A DNA stretch of 39,609 nucleotides from Candidatus Omnitrophica bacterium CG11_big_fil_rev_8_21_14_0_20_64_10 (GTDB lineage Bacteria > Omnitrophota > Gorgyraeia > 1-14-0-20-64-10): positions 1 through 39,609 of the forward strand of contig PCVW01000057.1 of NCBI GenBank assembly GCA_002787095.1, read 5' to 3'. The stretch's first letter is position 1. The number at the start of each line of letters is the position of its first letter. Shown here in pieces: positions 4,071 to 14,308 of this stretch. The notes below the pieces were generated by a model. The model did not search any database and was not told where the DNA came from. It worked only from the letters and a program-made list of their open reading frames with translations. A program made the position numbers and the translations under genes.

Positions 4071-6578
4071 ATGCGATTTTTGAAGACGCTGTTCTGCGCC
4101 CTGGCCTCGGCGGCCCTGCTGACGATGGGGACGGCCGACGCCAAGACCGTTCCCCCGGAGGACACCCAAGCCCCTTACTTCTATGTTTTCGGTCCCGAAG
4201 GGGACCCGTTGCTCGGGGCGCAGGACCACATGCTGGAGCTGTTCGTGGATGTCCCGCAGAGCGAGTCGCGAATGGTCCGAATCGAAGTGTACGATCCCGA
4301 TACCGGCGGCATGCGGGATTTCCGGACCGATTCGGCCAACCGCTGGAACACCGTGACGGCTTTCTCCCTGTATGGGGCCGGCGGCAAGCTGATCCAGGAA
4401 GCCAGGTTCGGGGCCGACCGCAAGTGGGACCGGAGCTTCTACGCCTTCGAGGCCCAGGCGCCGAGCGCCGGCGAGAAGGTGGGGAGCGTCTATCGGTTCC
4501 GCCTGGAGGTCAAGACCCTGCAGGGGGATGACGCCAACCTGTTCCGGGTCCGGACCGAACCGGCCAGCGCCGAGGCCTTCTCCTACAGCCCCACCTTCCG
4601 TTTGCGGCCGGAGGAGGGGGAAAAGATGTTCTTCTATCCCGAGGTGCCGGCCGGCACCAAGCAGATCTCCCTGCGGAACTATGATCTGGACGCCAATGGC
4701 GGCAAGGGGATCCTGTACAACCCGGTGGACGGCACCCATGTCAAGGTGGCCGATTCTCTGAGCGGCCAATGGGCCGAGACCCGGGTCGCGGTCCGGGGGG
4801 ATGTCCCTTGGCGGTTGGAATACATCGTGACCAAGGGAACCCAGCACTACGCCCATGCCGGCGTGGAGGTGCTGGACGACCGGGGCAATCACCTGCCGGT
4901 CTACTTCCAGCAGGGGCGCCCGATGGCGCCGACCCCCAGGCCGGCCCCGGCTCCCAAGCCGGTCCCCGCTCCCGCGCCGGCTCCGAAGCCGGCTCCGACC
5001 AACGCCTGCAACCAGTTCACTTTCGACGCGACCGAATCCTATGACTTGGACAAGCAGCCGCTGACCTTCCTATGGGATTTCGGCGACGGCAGCACCGCCA
5101 CCGAGCCGGTGGTCAGCCATGTCTTCCAGAAGGGGGGCAAGTACAAGGTTTCGCTGACGGTCACCGACTCCTCGGGACTGGTCTGCAACAGCGACGCCTC
5201 CTTCCAGTGGGTCAAGGTGAACACTCCGCCGAAGGCGGCTTTCACCCTGCCGGAGCTGGTCTGCGTGGGTGAGGAGTTGGCCGCGGACGCCGGCGGCACG
5301 ATGGACGACGCGCCGGAAAACCTCTCCTATGTCTGGAACTTCGGCGACGGCAGCACCGCCGAGGGCAAGCAGGTCCGCAAGCAGTTCGCCAAGGGAGGCA
5401 CCTACCGGGTGACCCTGAAGGTGGACGACAACGAGAAGACCGTCTGCAGCACCGATGAGATCGCCCGGACGATCCGGGTCAACACCCCGCCGACGGCCGA
5501 CGCCGGCAAGGACCAGACGCTGTGTCTGAAGTCCTTCGACGATGTCTACGCCGTCTCGTTCGACGCGGGGGGCTCCCGGGACGCGGACGGGGACAAGCTT
5601 TCCTACGCGTGGGACTTCGGCGACGGCGCGATCGGGGAGGGTCAGCGGGTCAGCCATACCTATGCCAAGGGAGGCAGCTACACCGTGGGTCTGACCGTGG
5701 ACGACGGCGTCGGCTCCCGCTGCTCGGTCGCCAAGGACACGCTGCAGCTGCGGCTCGACAAGCCGCCGGTGGCGACGGCCAAGGGGCCGGCCGAGGCCTG
5801 CGCGGGAGCGTCGGTTGCCTTCGACGGCAGCGGCTCCAAGGCGGAAACCGGCAAGACCCTGGCCTACAGCTGGGACTTCGGCGACGGCGCCACGGCGACC
5901 GGCGCGCGGGTCAACCATACCTTCGCCAAGGGGGGCACCTACCGGGTGGCGCTGACCGTCAACGACGGCAGCGGCTCGGCCTGCGCCACGGCAACCGCCT
6001 CGATGACCGTCAAGGTCAACGGCGCGCCGAGCGCCGCCCTGACCGGGGAGACGCTCTCCTGCGTCACCAAGCCGGTCCGGTTCGACGCTTCCGGCTCCAA
6101 GGATCCGGATGGGGATTCCCTCCGGTACACCTGGAACTTCGGTGACGGCACGGTAGAGGAGGGGAGTTCCAAGGCTTCCCACGCCTACGCCAAGGGAGGC
6201 AATTACACCGTGAAGGTGACGGTGGACGACCGGAAGGGGTCTTCCTGCTCGACCGCTTCGGCCACCCACACGGTCAGGATCAACACGCCGCCGGTGGCGG
6301 ACACCGGTCCGAACCTGGTCTGCTGCGTGGACCAGACCGTGACCTTCGACGGCTCCAAGTCGTCGGACGCGGACGGGGACCGGTTGACCTACCACTGGGA
6401 CTTCGGCGACGGCGCGGCCGGCGAAGGGGCGAAGGTCTCCCACGCCTACAAGGAAATCGGACAGTACAAGGTGGTGCTGACGGTGAAGGACAACTCCGGA
6501 ACCGACTGCGACACCTCAACCGATTCCTTCGTGGCGGATGTGAACGCCAAGCCGGTCTCGGTGATCAAGGTCCGGTAA
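4071..6578 (+). CDS. Secreted protein: N-terminal uncharacterised region, Pro/Ala/Lys linker, six PKD repeats
   Basis: 835 aa with signal peptide MRFLKTLFCALASAALLTMGTADA, linker PTPRPAPAPKPVPAPAPAPKPAPT and six (W/V)(D/N)FGDG...GGxYxVxLTVxD units. Strong SD (aaaggaggt). Confidence 0.9.
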   Translation: MRFLKTLFCALASAALLTMGTADAKTVPPEDTQAPYFYVFGPEGDPLLGAQDHMLELFVDVPQSESRMVRIEVYDPDTGGMRDFRTDSANRWNTVTAFSLYGAGGKLIQEARFGADRKWDRSFYAFEAQAPSAGEKVGSVYRFRLEVKTLQGDDANLFRVRTEPASAEAFSYSPTFRLRPEEGEKMFFYPEVPAGTKQISLRNYDLDANGGKGILYNPVDGTHVKVADSLSGQWAETRVAVRGDVPWRLEYIVTKGTQHYAHAGVEVLDDRGNHLPVYFQQGRPMAPTPRPAPAPKPVPAPAPAPKPAPTNACNQFTFDATESYDLDKQPLTFLWDFGDGSTATEPVVSHVFQKGGKYKVSLTVTDSSGLVCNSDASFQWVKVNTPPKAAFTLPELVCVGEELAADAGGTMDDAPENLSYVWNFGDGSTAEGKQVRKQFAKGGTYRVTLKVDDNEKTVCSTDEIARTIRVNTPPTADAGKDQTLCLKSFDDVYAVSFDAGGSRDADGDKLSYAWDFGDGAIGEGQRVSHTYAKGGSYTVGLTVDDGVGSRCSVAKDTLQLRLDKPPVATAKGPAEACAGASVAFDGSGSKAETGKTLAYSWDFGDGATATGARVNHTFAKGGTYRVALTVNDGSGSACATATASMTVKVNGAPSAALTGETLSCVTKPVRFDASGSKDPDGDSLRYTWNFGDGTVEEGSSKASHAYAKGGNYTVKVTVDDRKGSSCSTASATHTVRINTPPVADTGPNLVCCVDQTVTFDGSKSSDADGDRLTYHWDFGDGAAGEGAKVSHAYKEIGQYKVVLTVKDNSGTDCDTSTDSFVADVNAKPVSVIKVR

Positions 6579-7344: not shown

Positions 7345-9462
7345 TTACCAGTCGAACCGGCGCTGGCCGTTCCGGTCGTGGGGCCGGCGGAACGAGGACG
7401 CCGCCTCCCGCCCTGCCATCAACCGGCCGGATTCCCCCCGGTTGAAGCCAAGCCGTTCGGTCCAAACCCCCCAGCTGCGCTCCACCGCCGCCCAGTATTC
7501 CCCATGCCCCTCATGCCGATGGCCGAACCGGGGGTCGTACCACCGACCGTCCCGGCTCTCCCGGATCCGATCCTCGATCTTCCGAGCCGCCAGCGGCAGC
7601 CGTTCCCGGATGCGGCTTAAGAAAACCGGCCGGACCGAGCCGGGCAGCCGAAGCAAAGTGTGGAAGGCGAATCGCGCCCCGTTCTCCTTCGCCCGGCGCA
7701 GCAGCCCCGGGATGTCGGAGGGATTGAGCCCCGGGATCACCGGCGCCACGCCGATCCCGACCGGCACGCCGGCGTCGGCCAGAAGCTTCATCGTTTCAAA
7801 CCGCTTCGCGGGAGACGGAGCCCCCGGCTCCACCGCCCGGGCAACCGCCGGGTCCAGGAACGGGATGCTGATGGAGACCGACACCGCCGCCTGCCGGGCC
7901 AGCTCCGCCAGCAGCCGCGCGTCGCGCCGGATCAGGGCCGACTTGGTGATGATCGCGACCGGGTTGCGGTACTTCAGACATACCTCCAAACAGCCCCGCG
8001 TCAGCTTCCAGGCCGCTTCGATCGGCTGGTAGCAGTCGGTCACCCCGGAGAAGACGATCGTCTCCCCTTGCCAGCTTCGCTTCTGAAAGGCCGCCTCCAA
8101 CAGCCGGGGGGCCTTCGGCTTGACGAAGAGCTTGCGCTCAAAGTCGCTGCCGGCTCCCAGCCCGTAATACTCATGCGTCGGCCGAGCGAAGCAGTTGTGG
8201 CTGACCACCCCGTTGGCGATGAAATCCCCCGTGCCGGTCGTGATGTCGAACATCGGCAAGTCAAAACCCAGCGGTTCGATGGAAACCACCCGAAGCTTCG
8301 CTTGATTCTTGATCGCTTGCCAGGAGATGTCCTTCTTGCGGGAGATAGCCGGGTCAACCATGTGAAAAAAACGGAGGTGCTCCCGAAGCCCACCGCGCAC
8401 GCGCACAACAAGGATCGGTTTGCCGGGCCGATTAACTTTCGTTTCTTCCACAATGGAATCGAACTTCAGCCGACGGAGGCTATCGACGATCCACTCGATC
8501 ATCTTGCAATCAGCATTGGAGATGCGGAGGATCCCTCTGCTGTAGCAGCCCTCCGCGTCGAATATGCCGGCCAAGAATCCTTTTCTCCAGGAGCTGCTCA
8601 GAGCAGTTGGCCATCGGATTAATTCCTTCACCCGCTCAACATGAAGACGAACGCTCGTCCGGATAGCATAGACCGGCCGATAGCCAACTGCCGCTTTCTG
8701 AAATAAAAACTCCTGGGTGGGGACATTGATCTCGAGCAGATATCGGGCAGATCGCGAAAGGGCTTCCAAGTCAATCAAAGCCAACCGGAACCTGTGCTGA
8801 ACATCCGTACCGCGGCGGCGGCCGGAATAGGCGTACGATCCGATCGAACCATCTCCCCGGATCATTCCGCATAGGTACCCTCTTTGGTACTCGGCATCCT
8901 TCTCGGGCGGGGCTGAAAATCGGCCTGTACCCAAAAGATGGTTCCTGATCGTCAGATGGGGCCGGCGAGCGTTGCCCCATTCAGTCCCCGTGACATACTT
9001 CCAGCCGCGGTTGCTCAGGAAACGATGGTCCCCGCTGGCTGTAAGCTGAGTGCCATCTTCAAGCGTGATCCGATAAGCCGGCTTGACCGAAGACCAATGG
9101 GCGATGACATGCGTTTTGACAAGATGGCGATAGGTGCCGCCCAGGGTGGTGCCGTAGATTTCGTCTCCGGTCCGAACATCCGCAATCGGTTTCGTCCGCC
9201 CGTTCCCCATCAAAACGGGCGTGTCGCCGGACAGGCAGTAGGCACACGAATGGAAACATCCCCTGTAGGGATTCAGGGACCAGGTGAAACCGATGTCGGG
9301 GCTGTCGTTTTTGGAGAGGATGTTTTTGGAGTGATCGACATAGATCTCCTGCGGCTGTTCCGGCGGCGGGCCGATCAATTCCCGCTGGTCGGTGAGATAC
9401 GGATTGGGAGGATTGTCCACCCGGATGAGTCCGAGCCGGGATGCGGTCGGCAGGGTCTCCAT
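7345..9462 (-). CDS. Radical SAM protein (SplB-like / PA0069-Rv2578c type) interrupted by an intein
   Basis: 705 aa precursor. Exteins: YVDHSKNILSKNDSPDIGFTWSLNPYRGCFHSCAY | CFARPTHEYYGLGAGSDFERKLFVK...IVFSGVTDCYQPIEAAWKLTRGCLEVCLKYRNPVAIITKSALI. The in-frame intein lies between them. Confidence 0.93.
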   Translation of the reverse strand: METLPTASRLGLIRVDNPPNPYLTDQRELIGPPPEQPQEIYVDHSKNILSKNDSPDIGFTWSLNPYRGCFHSCAYCLSGDTPVLMGNGRTKPIADVRTGDEIYGTTLGGTYRHLVKTHVIAHWSSVKPAYRITLEDGTQLTASGDHRFLSNRGWKYVTGTEWGNARRPHLTIRNHLLGTGRFSAPPEKDAEYQRGYLCGMIRGDGSIGSYAYSGRRRGTDVQHRFRLALIDLEALSRSARYLLEINVPTQEFLFQKAAVGYRPVYAIRTSVRLHVERVKELIRWPTALSSSWRKGFLAGIFDAEGCYSRGILRISNADCKMIEWIVDSLRRLKFDSIVEETKVNRPGKPILVVRVRGGLREHLRFFHMVDPAISRKKDISWQAIKNQAKLRVVSIEPLGFDLPMFDITTGTGDFIANGVVSHNCFARPTHEYYGLGAGSDFERKLFVKPKAPRLLEAAFQKRSWQGETIVFSGVTDCYQPIEAAWKLTRGCLEVCLKYRNPVAIITKSALIRRDARLLAELARQAAVSVSISIPFLDPAVARAVEPGAPSPAKRFETMKLLADAGVPVGIGVAPVIPGLNPSDIPGLLRRAKENGARFAFHTLLRLPGSVRPVFLSRIRERLPLAARKIEDRIRESRDGRWYDPRFGHRHEGHGEYWAAVERSWGVWTERLGFNRGESGRLMAGREAASSFRRPHDRNGQRRFDW
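8194..9237 (-). mobile_element. Class 1 intein with LAGLIDADG homing endonuclease domain (precursor residues 76-423)
   Basis: N-terminal block A CLSGDTPVLMGNGRTKPIADVRTGDEIYG; block B TASGDHRFLSNRGWKYV; LAGLIDADG-type blocks YLCGMIRGDGSIG and FLAGIFDAEGCYSRGILRISN; C-terminal block MFDITTGTGDFIANGVVSHN followed by Cys+1. Codons checked at both junctions (9235-9237 tgc; 8194-8196 aac). Confidence 0.95.
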
Positions 9463-11403: not shown

Positions 11404-12015
11404 TTATTTTACGGCAATTTCGGAGAGGACGTCGCGAATTCGGGGGGAGCCGATTTTGTGGGAGCAGTAGCCGAAAGGATTCTTCTCAAGGTACTGCTGA
11501 TGAACCTCCTCGGCCCGGTAGAAGGGGCCGGCCGGGGCGATCTCGGTCACGATCGGCCCATCGAAAACATGGGCCTCCTCCAGCAGCCGCTTGCTCTGCT
11601 CGGCCAACGCCCGCTGCGTCTCATCGTGAAAGAAGATCGCCGAGCGGTATTGGGAGCCGATGTCCGGTCCCTGCCGGTTGGGCGTGGTCGGGTCGTGCCA
11701 CTGCCAAAAAACGGTCAGCAGCTCCCCATAGGAGACCTTCGCCGGATCATAGATAATTTCGATCGCCTCGGCATGGCCGGTTTTCCCGGTCGTGACATCG
11801 TAGTATCCGGGATCGCGGAGGTCTCCGCCGGTATAGCCGACCTGGGTGGAGATCACCCCGGGGACCTTGGAGAAGATTTTCTCCACCCCCCAGAAGCAGC
11901 CGGCGGCGAAAGTGGCCTTACGTTGCCCTTCCATCACCTGCGCCCCCGAAGGGGGAACGCCCCCCAAGTCGCCGGCCAGCAGAATCGCCAACAGGAATAT
12001 CCATCCCCGTCTCAT
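11404..12015 (-). CDS. msrA: Peptide-methionine (S)-S-oxide reductase, probably exported
   Basis: 203 aa with N-terminal signal-like sequence MRRGWIFLLAILLAGDLGGVPPSGAQ, then TFAAGCFWGVEKIFSKVPGVISTQVGYTGGDLRDPGYYDVTTGKTGHAEAIEI (GCFWG motif). SD present. Confidence 0.95.
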   Translation of the reverse strand: MRRGWIFLLAILLAGDLGGVPPSGAQVMEGQRKATFAAGCFWGVEKIFSKVPGVISTQVGYTGGDLRDPGYYDVTTGKTGHAEAIEIIYDPAKVSYGELLTVFWQWHDPTTPNRQGPDIGSQYRSAIFFHDETQRALAEQSKRLLEEAHVFDGPIVTEIAPAGPFYRAEEVHQQYLEKNPFGYCSHKIGSPRIRDVLSEIAVK

Positions 12016-13768: not shown

Positions 13769-14308
13769 TTAAGCGACCTGAAGCGTCTGTTGACCCTTTT
13801 TCCAGTTGCAGGGGGTCAGCCCGCCGGTCTGCAGGGCGTCCAACACCCGCAGCACCTCCTCGGGATTCCGACCGACGCTCAAATCGGTCACCATCACGAA
13901 CCGGATCACCCCTTCAGGATCGACCAGGTAGACCGCCCGCTGGGCGACCCCTTCCCGGGCGTCCAAAATGCCGAGCGCGCCGGTCAATTCCCGCTTGATG
14001 TCCGCCAGCATCGGGAACGGCAGGGTGGAGAGCTCCTCCTTCTGCTGCCGCCAGGCCAGATGCACGAACTCGGTGTCGGTGCTGCCGCCCAACACCTGGG
14101 CATTGCGCTTTGTGAACTCGTCCGCCAACTGTCCGAAAGACTCGATCTCGGTCGGGCAGACGAAGGTGAAATCCTTCGGCCAAAAGAAGACCGCGAGCCA
14201 CTTGCCCGGATAAGAGCGGTTGCTGATCTCGGTAAAAGCGTCCTTGACGTTGTTGGACACCGTCGCCTTCAGTTTGAATTCCGGAAATTGATCTCCCACA
14301 CCCAACAT
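13769..14308 (-). CDS. Peroxiredoxin, AhpC/TSA family
   Basis: 179 aa: MLGVGDQFPEFKLKATVS...KWLAVFFWPKDFTFVCPTEIESFGQLADEFTKRNAQVLGGSTDTEFVHLAWR...TPCNWKKGQQTL. SD aaggaggg. Confidence 0.95.
   Translation of the reverse strand: MLGVGDQFPEFKLKATVSNNVKDAFTEISNRSYPGKWLAVFFWPKDFTFVCPTEIESFGQLADEFTKRNAQVLGGSTDTEFVHLAWRQQKEELSTLPFPMLADIKRELTGALGILDAREGVAQRAVYLVDPEGVIRFVMVTDLSVGRNPEEVLRVLDALQTGGLTPCNWKKGQQTLQVA

Follow-up and report, generated by a model that had tools for sequence, protein, structure and literature searches.

A predicted LAGLIDADG homing intein before the third cluster cysteine of a PA0069-family radical SAM protein in Omnitrophota

The window, i.e., the whole stretch of 39,609 nucleotides of Omnitrophota DNA analyzed here, encodes on its minus strand a radical SAM protein of the PA0069 family that carries an intein. 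The precursor gene (7345..9462) is a single open frame of 705 aa that can be divided into three parts. (i) The N-extein (9238..9462, residues 1–75) ends in NPYRGCFHSCAY and carries the cluster ligands C69 and C73, the latter at position −3. (ii) The intein (8194..9237, residues 76–423, 348 aa) consists of a Hint splicing domain into which a LAGLIDADG endonuclease with two motifs is inserted; the intein begins with CLSGDTPVL, ends with GVVSHN, and is followed by C424. (iii) The C-extein (7348..8193, residues 424–705) starts with CFARPTHEYY and contains the radical SAM domain (PF04055, 51 bits, residues 463–590). The insertion point lies immediately ahead of the third Cys in the cluster motif (GCFHSCAY/C, where the slash marks the intein), and joining the exteins yields a 357-aa protein with an intact CX3CX2C (GCFHSCAYCFARP; GCFHSCAYC), in which C424 is predicted to be both the +1 nucleophile and the third cluster ligand. 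The coordinates and extein joins given in the original prediction are exact, and its proposal that the +1 Cys doubles as the third ligand is confirmed by the joined motif.

Against NF033668, the NCBIfam model of the PA0069 family, the joined extein reaches 370.5 bits and passes the curated cut-off of 360; the interrupted precursor, at 353 bits, does not. The CX3CX2C motif of the family is likewise found once the exteins are joined. In the N-extein, residues C69, H71, C73, and Y75 are invariant in 12/12 same-site carriers, including the window. A literature search found no paper naming PA0069 together with radical SAM. Genes for MsrA (11404-12015) and an AhpC/TSA peroxiredoxin (13769-14308) lie on the same strand, some kilobases upstream of the precursor gene. 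Positions 4071-6578 of the window encode an 835-aa protein with six PKD-domain matches.

All hallmarks of a class 1 intein are present: a Cys at position 1, the block B His, a C-terminal His-Asn, and a Cys at +1. The N-terminal intein model TIGR01445 passes its cut-off (32.6–34.5 bits against 24.5), and PF14890 (Intein_splicing) stays under its gathering score (27.8–30.9 bits against 35.8). Residues C76, His146 (block B), Asp406 (block F), His422, Asn423, and Cys424 are the same in every one of the 12 carriers. Two assisting residues are replaced or missing: the block B Thr position (B:7) is Ser in eight carriers, including the window intein, and Gly in four, and a block comparison that included the NpuDnaB intein found no block F His (F:13) in the window intein. 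Both residues are common, yet not obligatory in all inteins (PMC4031507). With the block B Thr replaced and the block F His absent, predicted splicing may be slow.

The endonuclease occupies approximately residues 190–369 (8356..8895), a span whose ends are approximate and were placed from its motifs, the PF14528 match, the secondary structure of the model, and the match to I-DmoI. Its two LAGLIDADG motifs are GYLCGMIRGDG (residues 195–205, 8848-8880), with the acid D204, and GFLAGIFDAEG (residues 295–305, 8548-8580), with the acid E304; both acids are invariant (12/12 carriers). PF14528 (LAGLIDADG_3) matches residues 293–352 with 30.9–33.5 bits, passing its cut-off of 22.5.

An AlphaFold model of the precursor, built on an alignment of 12 sequences and with a mean pLDDT of 73, matches the NpuDnaB intein (Hint) with a TM-score of 0.80 by target and the endonuclease I-DmoI with about 0.78 by target; PI-PfuI and VMA-type inteins are matched as well. 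At the sequence level, the only match in the PDB is the NpuDnaB intein (4o1r), which shares the Hint fold with the window intein at low identity. Similarly, large inteins such as PI-PfuI share both the Hint fold and the LAGLIDADG endonuclease despite low sequence identity, although they, like NpuDnaB, have a Thr in block B where the window intein has Ser. The Hint blocks named in the original prediction are backed by invariant splicing residues and a predicted fold, and the two endonuclease motifs by their invariant acids and the I-DmoI match.

From this computed anatomy and the conserved catalytic residues, we infer both splicing and cutting. After translation, C1 (Cys76) would attack the Tyr75-Cys76 bond, and the acyl group would then pass to Cys424; cyclization of Asn423 would release a joined protein that recovers the 4Fe-4S motif. 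In DNA, the endonuclease would cut intein-free copies of the conserved motif, and repair of the cut copy would write the intein in. We are highly confident in the reading of 8194-9237 as a full-length class 1 intein with a LAGLIDADG endonuclease, inserted before the third Cys and predicted to move by homing.

Inteins at the same site were found in 11 other genes, 54–70% identical to the window intein, so that even the nearest relative found is only 70% identical. Eight of these genes belong to the window's phylum (Omnitrophota), two to Betaproteobacteria, and one to Nevskia; the same-site homologues in distant hosts that had been proposed as a check are therefore present. A further Betaproteobacteria genome has matches on two contigs. 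Of 386 genomes sampled from the phylum, about 34 carry a strong PA0069 gene, and eight of these genes are occupied, all at the site used in the window. Family f10 has three occupied and six empty PA0069 genes. The empty gene of G052, from the window's class, is sister to that of L010, also from Omnitrophota. In the window's own family, all gene carriers sampled (4/4) have the intein. The insert is not a product of chance, because homologous inserts stand at the identical position in 11 genes and relatives are uninterrupted. A literature search found no paper joining inteins with Omnitrophota. In G441 (L142:780-2250), the intein is truncated, with the N-terminal part only; next to it lies what looks, by eye, like a gene for a transposase, and for this reason a transposon may have struck this intein.

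We compared intein and extein histories in the 12 carriers. Compared with Proteobacteria, the window shows 55–59% identity in the intein but only 39–42% in the exteins. When trees of these 12 genes are built, the branch that separates the two main groups has a length of about 0.19 changes per column with inteins and about 1.2 with exteins, and a single extein clade holding all carriers is rejected (p-AU 0.0006). Because the inteins stay more alike than the exteins between phyla, and because the single clade is rejected, the sequences indicate horizontal spread of the intein across host gene lineages by homing. Within the window's phylum, intein and extein trees are not significantly different (p-AU 0.05–0.42). 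Together with the occupancy of 4/4 family carriers, this suggests a period of vertical descent in the phylum, which explains part of the occupancy pattern. One candidate for incongruence inside the phylum was G032, whose intein groups with the main clade of the phylum and whose extein falls outside it; the test was not significant (p-AU 0.14). Recurrence at one site and the empty sites are computed results, as is the spread of the intein across the lineages of its host genes; selfish homing would probably suffice to explain its presence.

The original prediction also held that the intein is less GC-rich than its flanks, as expected for recent acquisition. The first part is true with respect to the joined exteins and the window (intein 0.568, both exteins together 0.668, window 0.653), but hardly so with respect to the N-extein, which is nearly as low (0.582, compared to 0.688 for the C-extein). 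Thus, the contrast arises mainly from the C-extein. Intein GC lies below extein GC in 10/12 carriers and tracks the GC of the host extein (r = 0.78, 12 carriers), and a recent arrival is therefore not supported by base composition. The second part is thus not borne out: besides the GC tracking, the nearest intein found is only 70% identical, and all family carriers sampled are occupied. A viral donor was also considered, and none was found in a scan of viral contigs. The best phage match is in Virus Rctr197k (L108:2792-6061, plus strand), where a related intein, 27% identical, lies in a gene that seems SNF2-like from a weak Pfam match and is not a radical SAM gene; its annotation as ‘radical SAM protein-like’ may derive from the intein itself.

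Related enzymes with this type of intein at the same site have been catalogued before. The NCBIfam profile NF038136 (rSAM_Rv_intein), described as an intein-containing Rv2578c family radical SAM protein, formed the basis of our comparison. Residues 1–348 of the window intein align end to end with its positions 76–334, and the C-extein resumes at position 335; by this alignment, Rv2578c and the window share the insertion site and the kind of intein. The Rv2578c precedent named in the original prediction is therefore correct. The hosts differ (Rv2578c versus PA0069 family), and the full precursor reaches 468 bits, below the curated cut-off of 700. The NF038136 intein also spans about 259 positions, compared to 348 in the window, and, judging from this length, its endonuclease may be reduced.

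A more distant relative is found on a plasmid of Streptomyces sp. P9-2B-2 (L109:2878-4722, plus strand, beside tcmP), where the host is a DUF5131 (phage Gp37/Gp68) protein instead of PA0069. Its intein, 29% identical to the window intein, again directly precedes a third Cys, here that of a CX6CX2C motif (TGCDRVSKGCDN/C). In L158, a plasmid relative with 89% identical exteins, the site is uninterrupted (TGCDRVSKGCDNCYA). The L109 gene is absent from the gene table of the plasmid in PLSDB, which is incomplete.

MoaA, too, is a radical SAM enzyme. In Pyrococcus abyssi MoaA, a disulfide between intein Cys1 and the N-extein Cys at −3 blocks splicing until it is reduced, according to the accounts of Callahan 2011 in PMC3922620 and PMC10663303. 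The same pair exists in the window as C73 and C76, invariant in the 12 carriers; both hosts are iron–sulfur enzymes with a Cys at −3 and at intein position 1. The MoaA arrangement would be consistent with an intein that precedes the third Cys of a CX2C pair. However, MoaA is a different host family, and redox control has been shown there, whereas here the pair is known from sequence. By analogy, redox-sensitive splicing of the window intein is plausible, since Cys stands at the two positions used in MoaA.

Whether such sensitivity amounts to a switch with a role beyond selfish homing is another matter. An oxidized Cys73-Cys76 disulfide would block the first splicing step, so that the oxygen-sensitive enzyme is freed only in a reducing cell. 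We regard this as possible but unlikely. The invariant pair and the MoaA precedent favor it, as do, weakly, the nearby MsrA and AhpC/TSA genes, but the invariance itself is no evidence for a switch, because the cluster needs C73 as a ligand, and splicing needs C1 as the nucleophile, in any case. Furthermore, occupancy is sporadic, with many relatives lacking the intein, and a 2014 review saw no evidence of a physiological role for conditional splicing (PMC4031507). In the region of the cluster loop, the precursor model has too little confidence for the Cys73-Cys76 geometry to be read from it.

A broader version of this idea is that third-Cys sites of radical SAM proteins are a recurrent intein niche (PA0069, Rv2578c, DUF5131, MoaA), where the −3/1 Cys pair would automatically gate splicing by redox state, shield an oxygen-sensitive enzyme until the cell is reducing, and thereby aid persistence of the intein; we consider it speculative and rather improbable. 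Leaving the redox question aside, the window intein is an ordinary mobile element. It extends the catalogued Rv2578c insertion to another protein family, PA0069, both in a candidate phylum and in Proteobacteria; the endonucleases appear intact, and the PA0069 genes form a natural series of occupied and empty sites. Along with P. abyssi MoaA and the Streptomyces DUF5131 protein, they make the inherent redox sensitivity of Cys-motif inteins testable on several hosts.

It is very improbable that the precursor binds a 4Fe-4S cluster with intein C1 as the third ligand and that cluster state gates splicing. C1 does hold the third-ligand position in the sequence, but it belongs to the Hint active site; the model has some of its lowest confidence in the cluster loop (residues 67–74, pLDDT <50), unlike in the Hint domain, and we found no earlier case of an intein nucleophile that carries a cluster. 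A native-domain reading of the insert, which its presence in every gene carrier sampled in the window's own family might suggest, has a practically negligible probability given the splicing blocks, the endonuclease motifs, the recurrence across phyla, and the uninterrupted site in L010, L089, and many other relatives, close ones included, which upholds a precise insertion.

The preferred reading of the insert as a homing intein concerns one of several inteins in this genome. Further ones were seen in the window's genome (G000; L001, L002, L005), one in a host that looks, by eye, like a dCTP deaminase (C14) and another in the P-loop of what looks like an SMC-type ATPase (C69); in addition, a weak match lies on C26.
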